From Hydrogenovibrio halophilus DSM 15072 (GTDB taxonomy: Bacteria > Pseudomonadota > Gammaproteobacteria > Thiomicrospirales > Thiomicrospiraceae): a stretch of DNA of 64,000 nt. Both the position numbers and the translations under genes were made by a program. The notes under the pieces were generated by a model. The model was not told the origin of the DNA, did no database searches, and was given only the letters and a program-made list of their open reading frames with translations. The DNA lies in assembly GCF_000384235.1 (NCBI RefSeq), contig NZ_KB913033.1, forward strand, positions 813,164-877,163, in the 5' to 3' direction. Positions 51,819 to 60,381 of this stretch are shown in pieces; the first letter of the stretch is position 1, and each line of letters opens with the position of its first letter.

Positions 51819-53149
51819 GCCAATCCCCCAATCCGCGTTTTGCCGCCCTGAAAATGCTGCTGGCCGTCATTGACGAGGGCCGCTCGCTCAGTCGAGTGCT
51901 GCCGCCCGGTCTTGCCCAGTTTGAACAAAAACGCGATCGCGCTTTCTGCCAGAACCTGGTCATGGGCACACTACGCTGGCACAACCAGCTGGCGGCCATT
52001 CGTGACCGCCTGCTGAAAAAACCGCTCAAACCCAAAGACGAAGACGTCAACCAACTGATTCTTCTGGGCCTGTTTGAATTGCGTCATGCCGACACCCCGT
52101 CCCACGCGGCGGTCTCGGAAACCGTCGCTCTGGTCAAAAAGCTGAAAAAACCCTGGGCCAGAGGGCTGGTGAATGCGGTCTTGCGACGCGATCAACGCGA
52201 AGCGGCGACCCTCGACAGCTGGATCGCCGAGCAGCCTGCTCTGAAACACGCCCACCCGGAGTGGCTGGTGGCGCGTTTGCAGAGCGCCTACCCGGACCAC
52301 TGGGAAAGCGTTCTGAGCGCCAACAACCTGCCCGCCCCGCAAACCCTGCGCATCAACCGTCTGGCCGTCCGCCGCGAAGACTACGCCCGGACACTGGCCG
52401 ACCAGGGCATTGTGGCCCACCCTCACCCCCATGCACCGGACGCGCTGGTACTGGAAAGCAACCAAGTCATTCCGCGCTTGCCCGGTTTTGAGGAAGGTCA
52501 CTTCAGCGTTCAAGATGCCTCGGCCCAATTGGCCGCACCGCTTCTGGGGCCACTGCCGGGCGAGCGGGTGCTGGACGCCTGCGCCGCACCGGGCGGAAAA
52601 ACCACCCATTTGCAGGAATGGGCCGACAATCAATTGCACTGTCTGGCACTGGAAAAAGCGCCGGAGCGGATGGAACGTTTGAGCGAAAACCTGCACCGGC
52701 TGCAACTGGACGCCCAGTTGGAAAATGGGGACGCCGGATGTCCCGACGACTGGTGGGACGGCCAACCCTTTGACCGAATTCTGTTGGACGCCCCTTGTTC
52801 CGGCACCGGCATCATCCGTCGCCAGCCCGACATCAAATGGCACCGCACCACGGAAGACATCGCCCAACTGGTGCAGACCCAGCAACGCCTTCTGCAAGCA
52901 CTGTGGCCACTGCTTAAACCCGGCGGCACCCTGGTGTACGCCACCTGTTCGGTCCTGCCGGAAGAAAACGGCGAGCAGATACAGGCGTTTGTCGAACAGA
53001 CGCCGAACGCCCACCTCCTGCCACTTGAGGTAGAATGGGGCCTGACACAGCCTCTGCCGGGACGTCAGATTCTGCCCGGTCAGCCACAGGCTCCGGACAT
53101 GGACGGTTTCTACTATGCACGACTCAAAAAATCTGCGGCCAATGTCTGA
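51815..53149 (+). CDS. rsmB: 16S rRNA m5C967 methyltransferase
   Basis: Methylates C967 of 16S rRNA. 444 residues from ATG 51815, whose TGA overlap with fmt (ATGA) fixes the start; the frame is open to 51566 only because it overlaps fmt. An N-terminal NusB-like domain (1-140) is followed by the RsmB/F core: Asp-Ala-Cys-Ala-Ala-Pro-Gly-Gly-Lys-Thr-Thr-His (near 252), Asp-Ala-Pro-Cys-Ser-Gly-Thr-Gly (near 325) with the catalytic Cys, and a second Cys in Tyr-Ala-Thr-Cys-Ser. Confidence 0.95.
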   Translation: MSQSPNPRFAALKMLLAVIDEGRSLSRVLPPGLAQFEQKRDRAFCQNLVMGTLRWHNQLAAIRDRLLKKPLKPKDEDVNQLILLGLFELRHADTPSHAAVSETVALVKKLKKPWARGLVNAVLRRDQREAATLDSWIAEQPALKHAHPEWLVARLQSAYPDHWESVLSANNLPAPQTLRINRLAVRREDYARTLADQGIVAHPHPHAPDALVLESNQVIPRLPGFEEGHFSVQDASAQLAAPLLGPLPGERVLDACAAPGGKTTHLQEWADNQLHCLALEKAPERMERLSENLHRLQLDAQLENGDAGCPDDWWDGQPFDRILLDAPCSGTGIIRRQPDIKWHRTTEDIAQLVQTQQRLLQALWPLLKPGGTLVYATCSVLPEENGEQIQAFVEQTPNAHLLPLEVEWGLTQPLPGRQILPGQPQAPDMDGFYYARLKKSAANV

Positions 53150-53783
53150 TCTGCCTCACTGGTTCGGCCTTCTGTGTCTGCTCATCGGTTTCTCGGGGCC
53201 GACCTGGGCACAGGCCAAAACGCCTGCGGACACAACACAGGAAACAGCAACCACCTCTCCGGCGGCCCCCGGCCGGATCGAAGTTCTGTCCCTGTACGAT
53301 TATCAGGACAATCAACAGCTGATTCTGGACGCCAGAATCCGTCTTTCCCTGCCCCCGGCGGTGATGGACGCATTGCAGCATGAAATCCCCATGACCTTTC
53401 AGACCGAAATCACCCTGGACGAATCCCGTTCCCTGCTGGGCATCCCCTATCAACGCAACCGGGTTCAGATTCGCTACCAGACCCGGCTGCAGTATTACCG
53501 TTTTAACCAGGCCTGGGTGTTGCACAACCTGCGCAACGAGAAGGTGCAGAGCTTTTCTTCTCTGGAAGAAGCCCTTGAGACACTGGGCACCCTGTCCGGC
53601 TTTGCCCTGACCAATCTGGCCACATTGCACCCCAATACCGAATATCATATGGGAGTGCGCATGTTTCTGGATCGCTGGACCCTGCCCAGCCCGATGATGA
53701 TCGACGCCCTGTTTTCACCGGCCTGGCAATTGGACAGCGGCTGGGAAAGCATTCGGATCCAATCACCCAAAAGCTGGCTATAG
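53142..53783 (+). CDS. DUF4390 exported protein
   Basis: 213 residues: a hydrophobic signal segment near residues 5-24 (Leu-Leu-Cys-Leu-Leu-Ile-Gly-Phe), a Thr/Ala-rich stretch, then a beta-rich DUF4390 domain (Leu-Asp-Ala-Arg-Ile-Arg-Leu-Ser-Leu-Pro; Tyr-x-x-Arg-Leu-Gln-Tyr-Tyr). In Gammaproteobacteria it usually precedes an NtrY-like kinase, as here. ATG 53142 overlaps the rsmB stop by 8 bp; ATG 53115 is also possible. It contains a near-copy of the palindrome (53506-53517). Confidence 0.83.
   Translation: MSDLPHWFGLLCLLIGFSGPTWAQAKTPADTTQETATTSPAAPGRIEVLSLYDYQDNQQLILDARIRLSLPPAVMDALQHEIPMTFQTEITLDESRSLLGIPYQRNRVQIRYQTRLQYYRFNQAWVLHNLRNEKVQSFSSLEEALETLGTLSGFALTNLATLHPNTEYHMGVRMFLDRWTLPSPMMIDALFSPAWQLDSGWESIRIQSPKSWL
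53506..53517. repeat. Near-copy of ACCAGGCCTGGT (one mismatch) in the DUF4390 gene
   Basis: ACCAGGCCTGGG, with the usual T-run before it; read as Asn-Gln-Ala-Trp-Val. One base from the full palindrome. Confidence 0.55.
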
Positions 53784-53824: not shown

Positions 53825-56059
53825 ATGAAATCCCTGTGGCGCAACCCACTGACATTTTTTCGTCAATACGGCGTCCTGATTGCCATCGCCAGTGTGTTGC
53901 TGATGATTCTGGTCATGATGAGCCAGATCCTGCAAAACGCGTCGCAATTTGCCCAAACCTATTCAATTCTGCTGTTCATTTCATTCGGCGGCATTCTGCT
54001 GCTGCTGGTGATGCTGGGCCGAACCCTTTACCGACTGCGCCGTGAATACCGGGAAAAAGTCCCCGGCACCCGCCTGACCCGCCGACTGGCCGGGCTTTTC
54101 AGCCTGATCATCGGCTTGCCACTGACTGTGATGTTTTATTTTTCCTACACCTTTGTGCAACAAAGCATTGACCAGTGGTTCGATGTCAAAACCGAAACCG
54201 CCCTCAACCACGCGGTCGAACTGGTTCAGGTCACCCTGAATGACCAGACCCGACGCTCACTCAACGCCACCGAACAGCAGCTCAACCAGCACCACACCGA
54301 ATTGCTGAGCACGCCGGTACTGACCTTGAGCAAAATGAGCCAGCAACTGGGCATCCGCGAAATGGCCCTGTATCAGTCTGATGGCCGTCTGGTGGCCTAC
54401 AGCGCCACCAGCAACTCACGCATTCTGCCGCCCAAACCCGAACCGCGCCTGTTTCAGAATGTCCGCAATGACCGCAATTACGCTGCGATCGAAACCCGGG
54501 TCGGAGCAAACAACGCCTACCAGGTGATCAGGGTCATGCTGCCGGTCAAGGATCTGGTCAACAACCAGACCTACGCCCTTCAGGCCATTTTCCCGCTGCC
54601 GGAACAGGTCAGCCAGCTGGCCAACAAGGTGCGCATCGCCGCCAACCAGTATCAGGAACTGTCCTACCTCAAAGGCCCACTGAAAACCTCCTTCACCGTG
54701 ATTCTGGGACTGGTGTGGTTACTGGGGCTGATTGTCGCCATTCTGTTCACCCTGCAGGCGTTGCAGAACATGGTCCGCCCGATCCGCACCCTGGCCGAAG
54801 GCACCCGAGCCGTAGCGCAGGGCGATTACAGCGTCACAATTACCGAAACCTCCGAAGACGAAATGGGGCAACTGGTCACCTCCTTCAACGACATGATCCA
54901 GCAGATCGCCAAAGCCCGGCATGAAATCAAATTCGGTCACCAGCAGACCGAAATCCAGAAACTCTACCTGCAGGCCATCATCAAAAACCTCAGCAGCGGC
55001 GTGCTGACACTGGACACCCAGATGCGCCTGAAAACCATCAACGACGCCACCAATGCCATTCTCGACACCCAGCTGTTCACCCAACAGGGCAACCCCATCG
55101 AGGACATCCTCAAGCGGGACGCGCATGAGCATCTCAGGCCCTTTTTTGACGAGGTGTTGCCGTTGCTGACCCAGGACAACAAACCCTGGCATCACCAGAT
55201 GACCTTTGACACCCCCAATGCCCAGAAAATCCTGTTGATTCATGGCTCCACCCTGCCCAGTCTGGACCAGAAAATCGGCGGTTACGTGCTGGTGGTCGAG
55301 GACATCACCCAGCTGGTTCAGGCACAACTGCATGCGGCCTGGACCGATGTGGCCCAACGACTGGCCCACGAAATCAAAAACCCGCTGACCCCGATTCAAC
55401 TTTCCGCCGAGCGCCTGCAGTTCAAACTGTCACGACATCTGGGCAGCGACGAGGCGGCCCTGTTGCAGAGGCTGACCGACACCATCATCGACCAGGTATC
55501 GACCATGCAATCGCTGGTGCAGGCCTTTACCGAGTATGCCAACACCCCCGAACTGGCTCTGAACGAGCTCAATCTCAATCAACTGATCGAAGACGTCGCC
55601 GGCATGTACCAGGCTCAGGATGCCAACTGGCAACTGCGCTACGAACTCAACCCCCGCTGCGACAGCGTCATCGCCGACGGGGCCAAACTGCGACAGCTGT
55701 TGCACAACCTGATCAAGAATGCGCTTGAGGCCTGCGAAGACCAGACGGACGCCGAAATCTGCATTGAAACCCGGTGTGACGCCGACCCGGCGAAACCTGT
55801 TATACTGAAAATCTGTGACAATGGCCCCGGCATCCCGGAAAACGCCAGAAACTGGGTGTTCGAACCCTATGCCACCGACAAACCCAAAGGCACCGGATTG
55901 GGGCTGGCCATTGTCAAAAAAATCGTTGACGAACACCACGGACGCATACGGGTCATGTCCAAAGCCGCGCCGTCGCACGGCACCTGCTTTGAAATCACCC
56001 TGCCCAGACACACCGGCCATGCGTCCGAGACCACAATGGACAACACCGAAACCTTATGA
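53825..56059 (+). CDS. ntrY: NtrY-like sensor histidine kinase
   Basis: A 744-residue membrane kinase. Segments near 17-36, 46-65 and 88-110 and a periplasmic part to about 285, then a segment near 290-310, HAMP (about 312-365), PAS-like region (about 375-495), HisKA with Ala-His-Glu-Ile-Lys-Asn-Pro-Leu-Thr-Pro (phospho-His at 515) and HATPase (N-box near 628-636, Asp-Asn-Gly-Pro-Gly-Ile at 665-670, Gly-Thr-Gly-Leu-Gly-Leu at 689-694). It overlaps ntrX by 4 bp. In several bacteria NtrYX responds to redox or nitrogen status; the signal here is unknown. Confidence 0.93.
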   Translation: MKSLWRNPLTFFRQYGVLIAIASVLLMILVMMSQILQNASQFAQTYSILLFISFGGILLLLVMLGRTLYRLRREYREKVPGTRLTRRLAGLFSLIIGLPLTVMFYFSYTFVQQSIDQWFDVKTETALNHAVELVQVTLNDQTRRSLNATEQQLNQHHTELLSTPVLTLSKMSQQLGIREMALYQSDGRLVAYSATSNSRILPPKPEPRLFQNVRNDRNYAAIETRVGANNAYQVIRVMLPVKDLVNNQTYALQAIFPLPEQVSQLANKVRIAANQYQELSYLKGPLKTSFTVILGLVWLLGLIVAILFTLQALQNMVRPIRTLAEGTRAVAQGDYSVTITETSEDEMGQLVTSFNDMIQQIAKARHEIKFGHQQTEIQKLYLQAIIKNLSSGVLTLDTQMRLKTINDATNAILDTQLFTQQGNPIEDILKRDAHEHLRPFFDEVLPLLTQDNKPWHHQMTFDTPNAQKILLIHGSTLPSLDQKIGGYVLVVEDITQLVQAQLHAAWTDVAQRLAHEIKNPLTPIQLSAERLQFKLSRHLGSDEAALLQRLTDTIIDQVSTMQSLVQAFTEYANTPELALNELNLNQLIEDVAGMYQAQDANWQLRYELNPRCDSVIADGAKLRQLLHNLIKNALEACEDQTDAEICIETRCDADPAKPVILKICDNGPGIPENARNWVFEPYATDKPKGTGLGLAIVKKIVDEHHGRIRVMSKAAPSHGTCFEITLPRHTGHASETTMDNTETL

Positions 56060-57411
56060 AAACCGCCAAGATTCTGGTCGTCGATGACGAAAAAGACATC
56101 CGCAACCTGATGCAGGAAATCCTCAGCGAAGAGAATTACGACGTCATCACCGCCGCCAATGGTCAGCAGGCCCGCACGGCCTGGCGGGACCAGGCTCCGG
56201 ACCTGGTGTTTCTCGACATCTGGATGCCCGACATTGACGGCATCACCCTGCTCAAAAGCATGATCGACGAATCCTTGCTTGAACACAGTCGGGTGATCAT
56301 GATGTCGGGCCACGGCACCATTGAAACCGCGATTGAAGCCACGCGTCTGGGCGCTTACGACTTTCTGGAAAAGCCCCTGTCACTGGCCAAGCTGCTGATC
56401 ACCGCCGAACGGGCCATTTCCGATCTACATCTGCACACCGAAAACCGGCACCTCAAACAGAAACTGCCCGAACAGATACTGCCCATTGGCAAAAGCAAGC
56501 GCGTGGTCGAACTGCGCGACACCATTGAACGTCTGGCCAAATACACCATGCCATTGCTGATCAAGGGCGAATCCGGCACCGGCAAACACCGGGTCGCCGA
56601 AGCCATCCACAAACTGAGCGTGCGCCATAAAAAGCCTCTCTACGAAATCCACGCCGACGATTTCGACAAACTGGAAACCGTGATTCTGGGACAGAATCAG
56701 ACCGGCACCACCCAGCTGGGCGAACTGGTCCGGGCCGATGGCGGCACCCTGGTTGTATCCAATATCGACGCCCTATCGGAACGTGGCCAGAATTTTCTGG
56801 CGCAGCTGATTTTCGACCAGAGTTTCGTCCGTCCCGGCGACAGCAAAAAAATCGCCATTGATCTGCGCCTGATCGCCCTGACCCGGGGCGGACTCGACGA
56901 TCAGGCCGCCCTTGGACACTTCCGAGAAGATCTGTTGCAGCGCCTCAAAGTCATGCCGGTCGAGCTTCCGGCCCTGCGCCAGCACACCGAAGACATTCCC
57001 GAACTGACCGACCATTTTCTGGATTACTTTCTGACCCACGAAGGGCTGAATTACCGTGAATTCGACGTGGCCGCCCAGAACGTCCTGCGCCAATACGCCT
57101 GGCCCGGCAATTATCGGGAACTGCAGAACCTGATCCAGCGACTGCTGATTCTGGGCGAAGGCAAAATCACCGACGACGAAGTCAAACGCGCTCTGGAGCA
57201 AAGCAAAACCGACCAGATGTCGGCCTGCAGCGTCGACACCTCCATTGACCTCAAAACCGCCAAAGAACGGTTTGAAGCGGCCTATCTCAGTCACCTGCTG
57301 CGCGAAACCGGCGGCAATGTGACCGAAACCGCCAAACGCTCCGGGGTCGAACGCACCAATCTCTACCGCAAACTCAAAACCCTGAACATCGATCCCAAAG
57401 ACCCTAAATAA
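56056..57411 (+). CDS. ntrX: NtrX-like response regulator with degenerate AAA+ domain
   Basis: 451 residues: receiver domain (1-120, phospho-acceptor Asp54), AAA+ domain (about 140-370) and C-terminal Fis-type helix-turn-helix (about 405-445). Walker A Gly-Glu-Ser-Gly-Thr-Gly-Lys (171-177) is intact, but the GAFTGA loop that contacts sigma-54 is absent. The Walker B place reads Gly-Gly-Thr-Leu-Val-Val-Ser-Asn-Ile-Asp (229-238) with no Asp-Glu. It may regulate without sigma-54 activation. Upstream in the same operon is the kinase. Confidence 0.92.
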   Translation: MKTAKILVVDDEKDIRNLMQEILSEENYDVITAANGQQARTAWRDQAPDLVFLDIWMPDIDGITLLKSMIDESLLEHSRVIMMSGHGTIETAIEATRLGAYDFLEKPLSLAKLLITAERAISDLHLHTENRHLKQKLPEQILPIGKSKRVVELRDTIERLAKYTMPLLIKGESGTGKHRVAEAIHKLSVRHKKPLYEIHADDFDKLETVILGQNQTGTTQLGELVRADGGTLVVSNIDALSERGQNFLAQLIFDQSFVRPGDSKKIAIDLRLIALTRGGLDDQAALGHFREDLLQRLKVMPVELPALRQHTEDIPELTDHFLDYFLTHEGLNYREFDVAAQNVLRQYAWPGNYRELQNLIQRLLILGEGKITDDEVKRALEQSKTDQMSACSVDTSIDLKTAKERFEAAYLSHLLRETGGNVTETAKRSGVERTNLYRKLKTLNIDPKDPK

Positions 57412-57490: not shown

Positions 57491-57522
57491 GGGCGCATGT
57501 CTTTCTACATTGTGCAGGTTTT

Positions 57523-58920
57523 ATGAACATCATCATCCTCGGAGCCGGGCAGGTCGGCAGTTCTCTGGCCGAACTGCTGGCCAAAGAAAACAACGATGTC
57601 ACCGTCGTCGATCTGGACCGAACGCATTTGCAGCGCCTGCAGGATCGCCTCGACATCCGCACGGTCAACGGGCACGCCTCCAACCCGGACATCCTCAATC
57701 AGGCCGGATTGGAAGAAGCCGACATGCTGATTGCAGCCACCCAGGTGGACGACACCAATATCGTCGCCTGCCAGTTGGCCCACATCATGCACAAAACCCC
57801 GACCAAAATCGCGAGGGTTCGCTCCGAGAGCTACCTGAATCACCCGGAACTGTTTGACCGCAACCTCAACACCAATGCGATCCCGATCAATGTGCTGATC
57901 AGCCCCGAATCCTTGGTCAAGGACTACATTCTGCAGCTGATCAGTTACCCCGGTTCGCTGCAGGTGGTGGATTTTGCCGAAGGCCGGGTGCGGCTGGTGG
58001 CGATGCGTGCCTATTCCGGCGGCCTGCTGGTGGGCAAGAAAATCCGCGAAATCAAACACTACCTGCCCGAAAGCGCACACAACCGGGTGGTCGCCATCTA
58101 CCGCCGCGACGAAGTGGTCATCCCCACCGGCAATGTCACCATTCAGGTCGGGGACGAGGTGTTCTTTCTGGCCGAGCCCGACAGCATCCCGATGATTGTG
58201 CAGGAATTGCGCCGCGACAAGCTGCGCCCCTCGCGCAACATCATGATCGCCGGCGGCGGCAACATCGGTTTCAACCTGGCAAAAGAGCTGGAAAAACAGC
58301 ATCAGGTCAAGATCGTCGACCACAATATCACCCAGGCCCGGCAGATTTCAGAGAGTCTGGAGCGCACCATTGTCATCAATGGCGATGTGTCCGACCGCGA
58401 CCTGTTGCTGGAAGAAAACATCGACGAAATCGACCTGTTTGTCGCGGTCACCAATTCGGATGAAGCCAACATCATTTCCGGGATGATGGCCAAGAAACTG
58501 GGCGTGCGCCGGGTCATTGCACTGGTCAACAACCAGTCCTATGTGGACCTGATCCACCTCAACAGCATTGACGTGGCGCTTTCCGCCGACCAGATCACCA
58601 CCAGTCGCCTGTTGCACTACATGCGACAGGCCGACACGGTCAAAGCCTTTACCCTGCGGCGCGGTGCAGCCGAAGCCATGGAAGTCATTGTCCATGGCAG
58701 TGAAAACACCTCCGACCTGATCGGGCGCAAAATCAGCGAGATTCGCTGGCCCATGGACATCACCATCGGCTGCATCATTCGCGATGACAAGGTCAAGTTT
58801 GCCCATCGGGACCTGACCATCGAAGCCGAAGACCATGTGATTCTGTTCCTCAACGACCGTACGCGGGCCGCCGAAGTCACCGAGCGCTTTTTGCCCCGTG
58901 ACAAGAAAACCCTGTTTTAG
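57523..58920 (+). CDS. trkA: Potassium uptake regulatory subunit TrkA
   Basis: Cytosolic NAD-binding subunit of the Trk K+ system, 465 residues. Two RCK repeats: Gly-Ala-Gly-Gln-Val-Gly-Ser-Ser near 7-14 and Gly-Gly-Gly-Asn-Ile-Gly-Phe-Asn in the second half, each followed by a TrkA-C region. ATG 57523 gives the standard N-terminus; the frame back to 57478 overlaps the promoter. Followed by trkH with 9 bp between. Confidence 0.96.
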   Translation: MNIIILGAGQVGSSLAELLAKENNDVTVVDLDRTHLQRLQDRLDIRTVNGHASNPDILNQAGLEEADMLIAATQVDDTNIVACQLAHIMHKTPTKIARVRSESYLNHPELFDRNLNTNAIPINVLISPESLVKDYILQLISYPGSLQVVDFAEGRVRLVAMRAYSGGLLVGKKIREIKHYLPESAHNRVVAIYRRDEVVIPTGNVTIQVGDEVFFLAEPDSIPMIVQELRRDKLRPSRNIMIAGGGNIGFNLAKELEKQHQVKIVDHNITQARQISESLERTIVINGDVSDRDLLLEENIDEIDLFVAVTNSDEANIISGMMAKKLGVRRVIALVNNQSYVDLIHLNSIDVALSADQITTSRLLHYMRQADTVKAFTLRRGAAEAMEVIVHGSENTSDLIGRKISEIRWPMDITIGCIIRDDKVKFAHRDLTIEAEDHVILFLNDRTRAAEVTERFLPRDKKTLF

Positions 58921-58929
58921 GACCGCACT

Positions 58930-60381
58930 GTGCACACACGCATTATTCTGAAAGTTCTGGGACTGTTGCTGATGCTGTTCAGCATCACCCTGATCCCGCC
59001 GATCATCGTCTCCCTGATCTACAAGGACGGCGGCACCTACGCCTTTACTTCGGCCTTTGTCTGGATGCTGCTGGTGGGCACAACGTTCTGGTTTTTCACC
59101 CGCCACGAAACCCATGACCTCAAGATCCGCGATGGTTTTGTGATCGTGGTCATGTTCTGGACCGTGCTGGGCCTAGTCGGGGCGATTCCACTGTATTTTG
59201 CCGCCGCCACCGACATTTCGGTGACCGATGCGATTTTCGAATCCTTTTCCGGTCTGACCACCACCGGAGCCACGGTGTTGAACGGTCTGGATCACCTGCC
59301 CCATGCCCTGCTCTGGTATCGCCAGCAACTGCAATGGCTGGGCGGGATGGGGATCATCGTGCTGGCCGTGGCCATTCTGCCGATGCTCGGCATCGGTGGC
59401 ATGCAGCTTTATCGGGCCGAAACGCCTGGGCCGGTCAAGGACAACAAGCTCGCCCCGCGCATCTCCGAAACCGCAAAGACCCTTTGGTACATCTATCTTG
59501 GCATCACCATCGCCTGCGCGATCAGCTTCTGGGCCGCCGGAATGAGCTGGTTTGATGCCATTGGTCACAGCTTTTCCACCGTGGCCATTGGCGGTTTTTC
59601 CACCCATGATGCCAGCATCGGTCATTTTGACAGTGTCCACATTGAAATGATTACCATGCTGTTCATGTACATTGCCGGCATTAACTTTGCCCTGCATTTT
59701 ACCGCTTACCGTCACATGTCCGTTCAGCGCTATCTGTCTGACCCCGAATACAAGGCGTACACCTTCATTCTGCTGGGCGGCATTGCGATTGTCAGCTTTT
59801 ACCTTTACGCAACCCAAACCTACCCGACCTGGGCCGAATCCCTGCGTTATGGAAGCTTTCAGGTGATGTCCATTGCGACCACCGCCGGGTTTGCCAGCGC
59901 CGACTTCAGCAGCTGGCCAGTGTTTTTGCCGATATTCCTGATTTTGATGAGCTACATCGGCGGCTCGGCGTACTCCACCGGCGGCGGGATGAAAGTCATC
60001 CGGGTCATGCTCCTGTTCAAGCAAGGGCTGCGAGAAATCCAGAAACTGCTGCACCCCAATGCAATGATGCCGGTCAAACTCAACGGCAAGCCCGTGTCAG
60101 AAAAAATCATGGCAGCGATCTGGGGCTTTTTCTCCCTGTATGTGTTTACCGTGGTGGTTTCCACCCTGATTTTATTGGCCATGGGCCTGGATCCGATGAC
60201 GGCCTTTTCTTCGGTCACCGCCACCATCACCAATCTGGGCCCCGGTCTGGGCGACGTTGCTTCCAACTTTTCCAGCCTGTCCGATCCCGTGAAATGGTTC
60301 CTGACCTTTTTGATGGTGCTGGGACGACTGGAACTGTTCACCATTCTCATCCTGTTCTCCGCCGCCTTCTGGCGCAAATAA
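58930..60381 (+). CDS. trkH: TrkH-type potassium transporter
   Basis: Membrane-spanning K+ channel subunit, 483 residues, with a GTG start. The Trk/Ktr pattern of repeated membrane-pore-membrane units is visible. Selectivity-filter Gly residues lie in Thr-Thr-Thr-Gly-Ala-Thr-Val, Val-Ala-Ile-Gly-Gly-Phe-Ser-Thr, Thr-Thr-Ala-Gly-Phe-Ala and Ile-Thr-Asn-Leu-Gly-Pro-Gly. Works with TrkA. Confidence 0.95.
   Translation: MHTRIILKVLGLLLMLFSITLIPPIIVSLIYKDGGTYAFTSAFVWMLLVGTTFWFFTRHETHDLKIRDGFVIVVMFWTVLGLVGAIPLYFAAATDISVTDAIFESFSGLTTTGATVLNGLDHLPHALLWYRQQLQWLGGMGIIVLAVAILPMLGIGGMQLYRAETPGPVKDNKLAPRISETAKTLWYIYLGITIACAISFWAAGMSWFDAIGHSFSTVAIGGFSTHDASIGHFDSVHIEMITMLFMYIAGINFALHFTAYRHMSVQRYLSDPEYKAYTFILLGGIAIVSFYLYATQTYPTWAESLRYGSFQVMSIATTAGFASADFSSWPVFLPIFLILMSYIGGSAYSTGGGMKVIRVMLLFKQGLREIQKLLHPNAMMPVKLNGKPVSEKIMAAIWGFFSLYVFTVVVSTLILLAMGLDPMTAFSSVTATITNLGPGLGDVASNFSSLSDPVKWFLTFLMVLGRLELFTILILFSAAFWRK

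Follow-up and report, generated by a model that had tools for sequence, protein, structure and literature searches.

An NtrX response regulator of Hydrogenovibrio halophilus without the sigma-54 contact loop and the Walker B acids, and its probable action at sigma-70-type promoters

The ntrX gene and the AAA+ domain of its product

The gene considered here, a plrR-like ntrX, lies at positions 56056..57411 on the forward strand of a 64,000-nucleotide stretch of the genome of H. halophilus DSM 15072 (contig NZ_KB913033.1), which as a whole is referred to as the window. It is a single uninterrupted open reading frame that starts with ATG and encodes a protein of 451 amino acids. In this protein, Pfam recognizes a receiver domain (Response_reg, residues 6-114), an AAA+ domain (Sigma54_activat, 144-302), its lid (AAA_lid_14, 308-387) and a Fis-type helix-turn-helix (HTH_8, 404-441; about residues 400-445, positions 57253..57390), which together make up the architecture of NtrX. 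The best NCBIfam match is also NtrX (NF051870), with 359 bits, short of the equivalog cut-off of 600. This cut-off is exceeded in only 61 of 199 genomes of the phylum, so the model looks narrow.

The roles of the Walker A and Walker B motifs, the arginine fingers and the asparagine of the "glutamate switch" are known from work on PspF and NtrC, and the aspartate of Walker B helps to hold magnesium. The glutamate of this motif is required for normal hydrolysis in PspF (PMC4132715). The window NtrX was aligned with five control enhancer-binding proteins, four from its own genome (L001-L004) and one from another (L131, genome G053). It holds Asp54, the expected phospho-acceptor of the receiver (56215..56217), an intact Walker A, GESGTGK (residues 171-177, 56566..56586), and both arginine-finger positions, R290 and R296 (56923..56943), so that K177, R290 and R296, as expected of a sigma-54 activator, are retained. 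The catalytic part of the AAA+ domain is degenerate. Where the L1 loop would lie (residues 211-231, 56686..56748) and all five controls carry the GAFTGA motif, the aligned stretch is LGQNQTGTTQLGELVRADGGT, which counts 21 residues against 26 in the controls and is therefore 5 shorter. In the Walker B strand, VVSNID (residues 233-238, 56752..56769), Ser235-Asn236 (56758-56763) stand in the place of the Asp-Glu found in all five controls, and the asparagine of the glutamate switch is replaced by His199. The nearest relative, with 91% amino acid identity, also shows Ser-Asn and also lacks GAFTGA.

These results agree with the initial annotation, which had described an intact Walker A at 171-177, the absence of GAFTGA and the replacement of the Walker B pair in VVSNID at about residue 235, and had named a GAFTGA-like loop in a full alignment as a possible refutation. 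Such an alignment has now been carried out, and it reveals no GAFTGA-like loop in the protein. A motif that is merely shifted or misaligned is excluded by this alignment together with searches of the whole protein for exact and one-mismatch forms. Likewise, a pseudogene or a sequencing error is rejected in view of the intact reading frame, a ratio of nonsynonymous to synonymous substitution (dN/dS) of about 0.05 and the identical residues of the nearest relative.

The gene order around ntrX is rsmB-DUF4390-ntrY-ntrX-trkA-trkH, all the genes located here being on the forward strand, and reading frames nearby were read by eye as def, fmt and rsmB. The plrS-like sensor kinase gene ntrY (53825..56059) overlaps ntrX by 4 bases, and its product contains the Pfam domains NtrY_N (30.8 bits, cut-off 23.2), HAMP, HisKA and HATPase_c, plus a PAS_7 match (26.2) slightly below the cut-off of 27. 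A working cognate kinase is plausible because the HEIKN phospho-acceptor motif is present in HisKA, and NtrY is likely to be the cognate kinase of the window NtrX. On the 5' side of the kinase gene, as expected of a PlrP-PlrS-PlrR three-component system, lies the gene for a DUF4390 protein (53115..53783). It is homologous to PlrP, for which a role as third component has been proposed and which, by genetics reported in Bordetella, inhibits the phosphatase activity of the kinase (PMC13001219). The next gene 3' of ntrX is trkA (57523..58920, with its ATG at 57523; the Pfam search was run on 57520-58920), which encodes a potassium uptake regulator and is followed by the potassium transporter gene trkH (58930..60381), both of them assigned by Pfam and NCBIfam.

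The genome of H. halophilus (complete, 2.36 Mb) contains rpoN. A search with PF00158 gives nine matches: NtrX, four canonical enhancer-binding proteins (L001-L004), all with GAFTGA and Asp-Glu, and four weak ones (L006-L009, E 1e-6 to 7e-4). As sigma-54 and canonical activators are both present, it is the window NtrX itself that differs.

An AlphaFold2 model built from 36 aligned NtrX sequences (mean pLDDT 85.9, pTM 0.55) predicts that the AAA+ fold is retained, with two short strands (212-215 and 218-221), taken for a hairpin, at the site where L1 would protrude. Among solved structures, three Brucella NtrX entries occupy Foldseek ranks 1-6. They also reach the top Z score (29.1), on a par with NtrC1 (1ny5, Z 29.0) and closely followed by NtrC4 (3dzd, 28.4); the full-length root-mean-square deviation (rmsd) of these matches is large (18 to 22). 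Isolated AAA+ domains, from FleQ and NtrC1, superpose on the model at an rmsd of about 2 (Z 26 to 28), the FleQ domain with Z 27.6 over 243 residues at 2.1. Comparison with the 91% relative gives dN/dS values of 0.031 for the receiver, 0.074 for the AAA core, 0.029 for the lid and 0.042 for the helix-turn-helix (0.054 overall), and conservation within the family is 0.58 in the AAA core versus 0.82 in the receiver and 0.83 in the helix-turn-helix. The gene is under constraint, and the AAA core is its least constrained part. The loss of catalytic motifs and the lower conservation of this core are what could be expected of a gene decaying on its way to a pseudogene, but NtrX is found in 61 of the 62 genomes of the family, including 50 of the 50 near-complete ones, its Asp54 is invariant and the closest pair shows the low dN/dS already mentioned, which makes this explanation hardly credible.

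Loop and catalytic residues across NtrX proteins

The samples taken from the taxonomic family and from the taxonomic order consist of the same 62 genomes, and the family counts cover 60 NtrX besides that of the window (one of them, L140, is a fragment). Neither GAFTGA, nor any one-mismatch form of it, nor an Asp-Glu pair at Walker B occurs in any of the 60. Neither Walker B position is acidic in 44, and Ser or Ala occupies the first position in 44 as well. The sequence GxxxxGK of Walker A is found in 51 (one row is without the stretch) and its lysine is replaced by arginine in 8 of the 60, while R290 is present in 52, R296 in 58 and Asp54 in all 60; the glutamate-switch asparagine appears in only seven. 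In four deep-branching members (g2) the Walker B pair is reversed to Glu-Asp, in a Sulfurivirga-like genus (g4) the Walker A lysine has also been replaced by arginine, and in five proteins the Gly-Lys of Walker A is missing and the second position of Walker B is not acidic either. The absence of GAFTGA and Asp-Glu from the whole family, added to the nearest relative and to the dN/dS of about 0.05, shows that the Ser-Asn of the window protein is no isolated error.

To look beyond the family, class-wide NtrX were chosen by their position beside DUF4390 and the kinase, and not by the similarity of their AAA+ domains. DUF4390 was detected in 178 of 275 genomes of the class, from which 80 stretches were picked by hand with the aim of one per family code, skipping families for which no location was listed or whose match lay too close to the end of a contig. 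A total of 77 were usable after removing two proteins without a receiver match (L197 and L230) and one cut by a contig end (L183). All 77 hold Asp54, and none holds GAFTGA or a one-mismatch form. Asp-Glu is conserved in 22, both positions are acidic in 34 and neither in 10; GxxxxGK is present in 59, Walker A plus Asp-Glu together in 18, R296 in 15 and the glutamate-switch asparagine in 10. One member of this set, L189 from G268, is a protein of 223 amino acids with a receiver and an end resembling a helix-turn-helix, without an AAA+ domain.

A third set consists of named NtrX, the best 80 of 359 relatives by similarity, which shares species with the family set; in fact, the family, class-wide, named and alpha-type sets all overlap partly in species. 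Again, GAFTGA and its one-mismatch forms are absent and Asp54 is present in the 80, with Asp-Glu in 33 and GxxxxGK in 24. The Walker A lysine is arginine in 40, of which 27 retain Asp-Glu. This is the pattern of the Chromatiaceae (L018-L029, L032, L033, L035 and L038), where it is arginine in 16 of 16, in variants such as GEAGSGR, and Asp-Glu is kept. At the level of residues, the window family mostly shows the reverse picture, and separate lineages have lost separate parts of the AAA+ machinery.

NtrX proteins above the NF051870 cut-off are referred to as alpha-type, and 42 of the 61 were read: the best-scoring 30 (L234-L263) and 12 more (L275-L286). GAFTGA and one-mismatch forms are missing from all 42. 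The best-scoring 30 all have the Walker A lysine and both arginine fingers, 29 have Asp-Glu, and the glutamate-switch asparagine is found in 19, versus five of the five controls. In a tree of 146 rows, built without the trait columns and without L140 and L189, the window family forms one clade (SH-aLRT 96, starred), and the state with no Walker B acid requires at least 15 changes, a count that does not separate gain from loss. The absence of GAFTGA that had been annotated initially is thus real for the window NtrX, and it is not a peculiarity of this protein: NtrX of the alpha and gamma types, in the sequences read, generally lack the motif too. The complete loss of Asp-Glu, in turn, is common to the window family and to scattered other lineages.

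The uneven retention of these residues bears on a possible ATP switch without hydrolysis, in which ATP bound at Walker A would set the DNA-binding dimer or oligomer and so couple the signal of NtrY to the nucleotide state. The family keeps GxxxxGK, R290 and R296 in most members despite the loss of Walker B, Ser or Ala recurs at the first Walker B position, Brucella NtrX has been crystallised with ATP and with ADP (as indicated by the entry titles), and the essential need of Rhodobacter capsulatus NtrC is reported to be ATP binding and not hydrolysis (PMC10274813). Against this, the Walker B aspartate is absent from the window NtrX, and the Walker A lysine has been replaced by arginine in the family and named proteins counted above and lost in G230 (see below). 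As this lysine is replaced or lost in many NtrX, ATP binding can hardly be a general requirement, and the switch is regarded as a tentative and rather doubtful option.

NtrX without detectable rpoN and NtrX that keep the loop

The DNA-binding domain of RpoN was found in 225 of the 275 genomes of the class. When lists were compared by eye, six genomes with DUF4390 showed no rpoN match (G098, G140, G149, G230, G257 and G299). Among these six and G010, from the genus of the window, G230 is the only convincing case. In G149 there is no NtrX at E 1e-30, and the other five (G010, G098, G140, G257 and G299) encode activators with GAFTGA or GSFTGA as well, which makes a gap in their assemblies the probable reason for the lack of rpoN. 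The genome G230 (1.7 Mb, 98% complete) has no match to Sigma54_DBD or Sigma54_CBD, and NtrX is its sole NtrC-type match at E 1e-30. This NtrX has lost GAFTGA, the Gly-Lys of Walker A and both Walker B acids, and keeps its receiver, with ntrY upstream and trkA downstream. HTH_8 gives no Pfam match in it at E 0.001, and by eye its C-terminus resembles a helix-turn-helix. The order read by eye in G230 (L268 and L294) is def-fmt-DUF4390-ntrY-ntrX-trkA. Sigma54_DBD, the only domain sought in this case, is also missing from 3 of 12 alpha-type genomes, hand-picked with small genomes first, so that the fraction is no rate; their NtrX are without GAFTGA.

The initial annotation had proposed that the window regulator acts without remodelling sigma-54. 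The loss of GAFTGA and of both Walker B acids, together with the occurrence of NtrX in a few genomes where rpoN is not detectable, supports this proposal as far as residues and gene content can. A 2023 study of Ehrlichia called the sigma-54 domain of NtrX puzzling, as only sigma-70 and sigma-32 are known there (PMC9937504). The counts for alpha- and gamma-type NtrX, which lack the sigma-54 contact, would offer a possible answer.

Loop-keeping NtrX do exist. In a family of another class (f183), with NtrX that fall short of the NF051870 cut-off, ntrY, ntrX and trkA are found in the same order as in the window (L305-L333). The loops of the 29 NtrX read from it are GAFTGA in 10, GAFPGA in 11, GAFSGA in 2 and GAFAGA in 2; the remaining ones are GAFVGA, GAFVKA and AAFPGA, once each, and one protein has lost the loop. 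Adding L334, the 30 proteins comprise 30 with the Walker A lysine, 26 with Asp-Glu, 27 with both arginine fingers and 27 with the switch asparagine. The change of the contact threonine to proline (GAFPGA) has been reported to inactivate Bradyrhizobium NifA (PMC4641369). In ten NtrX from other deep lineages no GAFTGA was found and GAFPGA occurs in one (L295, with no ntrY match within the stretch fetched); all ten hold the Walker A lysine and both fingers, with Asp-Glu in six and Asp-Ala in four. A tree of 81 NtrX rows, among them the window family, groups them as one clade apart from 11 other enhancer-binding proteins (SH-aLRT 99, starred). It was built with a quick method without bootstrap, from every sixth family row, every fourth class-wide row and every fourth alpha row, leaving out L189, L162, L226 and L233, and the program issued a warning about long branches in the outgroup, where L003 and L273 meet.

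With these proteins at hand, two further explanations can be judged. In the first, the window NtrX would still activate sigma-54 promoters through a non-canonical contact, an idea to which the rpoN of its genome and the Pfam name Sigma54_activat lend themselves. The four sets counted above (60, 77, 80 and 42 proteins) contain no GAFTGA-like motif, the exchange of threonine for proline alone is reported to inactivate NifA, and a few genomes in which rpoN could not be detected still have NtrX, all of which renders such a contact very improbable. In the second, the window NtrX would be an anti-activator that enters the rings formed by canonical activators and thereby poisons their action, an explanation raised because the AAA+ fold and the arginine fingers are kept and Walker B and L1 are not. 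The predicted closeness of its fold to active domains (the FleQ fit described above) and the R296 of nearly all family members speak for it; however, R296 is found in only a minority of the other gamma NtrX, as the class-wide count illustrates, G230 retains NtrX where no rpoN is detectable, and beta NtrX lack the AAA+ domain (PMC13001219), so that poisoning is very improbable too.

As for the origin of these proteins, NtrX seems to have arisen from a sigma-54 activator through successive losses, first of the contact threonine, next of the loop and then of the catalytic residues, with the AAA+ domain as a whole lost among the beta proteins. Read in this manner, the f183 series suggests that decay starts at the contact threonine, at a stage when the catalytic residues have not yet been affected. 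Two observations weigh against such an order. First, among 19 other activators from five f183 genomes (12 GAFTGA, 1 GSFTGA, 1 GAYTGA, 2 GAFAGA, 1 GAFSGA and 2 GAYAAA), five have lost the contact threonine to Ala or Ser, and its loss is not specific to NtrX there; the proline form was found in none of the 19, and it alone is special to NtrX. Second, a regain of GAFTGA in f183 is compatible with parsimony, and is unlikely because the whole loop is retained. The two GAYAAA proteins, L344 and L355, which are not NtrX, are further candidates for sigma-54-independent relatives.

On balance, it is slightly favoured here that living NtrX span every stage of the conversion of a sigma-54 activator into a plain response regulator of sigma-70-type promoters. 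GAFTGA would have given way to GAFPGA, and this to a deletion of the loop with the catalytic residues kept, as in the alpha type. The glutamate switch, the arginine finger, Walker A or Walker B would then have been lost piecemeal, as in the gamma proteins, the Walker B loss throughout the window family being part of this stage, until the AAA+ domain itself disappeared in the beta ones. At the middle stages the domain might be a catalytically dead scaffold or a nucleotide sensor. If this is true, the sigma-54 label of NtrX in databases and regulon studies is wrong, and the graded series, which includes GAFTGA and GAFPGA NtrX from one family (f183), lets the order in which an AAA+ activator loses its engine be tested with natural proteins.

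A probable phosphorylation-switched DNA binder and its known relatives

The window NtrX is the response regulator of an NtrY-NtrX (PlrS-PlrR) system. It appears to be derived from a sigma-54 activator and very probably acts as a phosphorylation-switched DNA binder at sigma-70-type promoters. In this mechanism NtrY, whose motifs are intact, would phosphorylate Asp54, and the phosphorylation would change the arrangement of the dimer or of the domains. The Fis-type helix-turn-helix would then bind target operators and RNA polymerase would be recruited or blocked. The AAA+ domain would serve as a scaffold joining the receiver and the helix-turn-helix, and may still bind nucleotide via Walker A. 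Without the GAFTGA loop it is not expected to engage sigma-54, and without either of the Walker B acids it is not expected to turn over ATP.

Several points count against this mechanism. Sigma-54 is available in the window genome, which has rpoN and four canonical activators, and rpoN was found in 58 of the 62 family genomes, which makes the test by rpoN-less genomes uninformative inside the family. The mostly conserved Walker A and arginine fingers of the family suggest a possible remaining role for nucleotide binding or for contacts in an oligomer. Lastly, the search for an NtrX operator gave none: GCA-N9-TGC, the pattern proposed for NtrX (PMC7240162), is not enriched in the window, where it occurs 25 times against an expectation of 36.7 after shuffling, and 99 of 100 shuffled sequences contain it 25 times or more.

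Part of this had already appeared in print, since NtrX without GAFTGA can be found for Caulobacter (PMC10274813) and, in a table, for Thioalkalivibrio (PMC5744179). Neither the family-wide loss of Walker B, nor class-wide counts, nor a GAFPGA series in NtrX, nor an rpoN-less gammaproteobacterial case like G230 was found in the literature searched, which was available in part and thin in subscription journals. The observation on the window NtrX is correct and mostly explained, and the family-wide loss of Walker B and the decay series are the additions. NtrX is still grouped with sigma-54-dependent regulators, for instance in Acidithiobacillia (PMC12194929). Pfam labels its domain as a sigma-54 interaction domain, and the counts presented here would correct regulon predictions.

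Among proteins of known structure, the best sequence match of the window NtrX is that of Brucella abortus (PDB 5m7n, 5m7o and 5m7p, E 1.6e-88), whose entries are with ADP, with no ligand named and with ATP. Both proteins have the receiver–AAA+–helix-turn-helix architecture and no GAFTGA in the aligned stretch, but the Brucella one keeps the Asp-Glu of Walker B (YLDEV). Brucella NtrX is reported to lack GAFTGA, to bind ATP and to show no ATPase activity. VpsR from Vibrio (7v2b) has an NtrC-like fold (Z 24.4 to the model) with 24% identity to the window NtrX, and is a c-di-GMP binder by its PDB title. It works with sigma-70 and is not known to be an NtrYX partner. The NtrC-type proteins of R. 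capsulatus and Caulobacter bear an L1 deletion and are reported to act at sigma-70 promoters, like the NtrX proposed here, although they are NtrC and not NtrX, and in Caulobacter NtrC the residues for ATP binding and hydrolysis are required for ammonium use (PMC10274813). A parallel in gene context is PlrR of Bordetella, a member of the NtrYX family encoded in a rsmB-plrP(DUF4390)-plrS-plrR-trkAH neighbourhood like that of the window, where, unlike in the window NtrX, the beta proteins dispense with the AAA+ domain altogether (PMC13001219).

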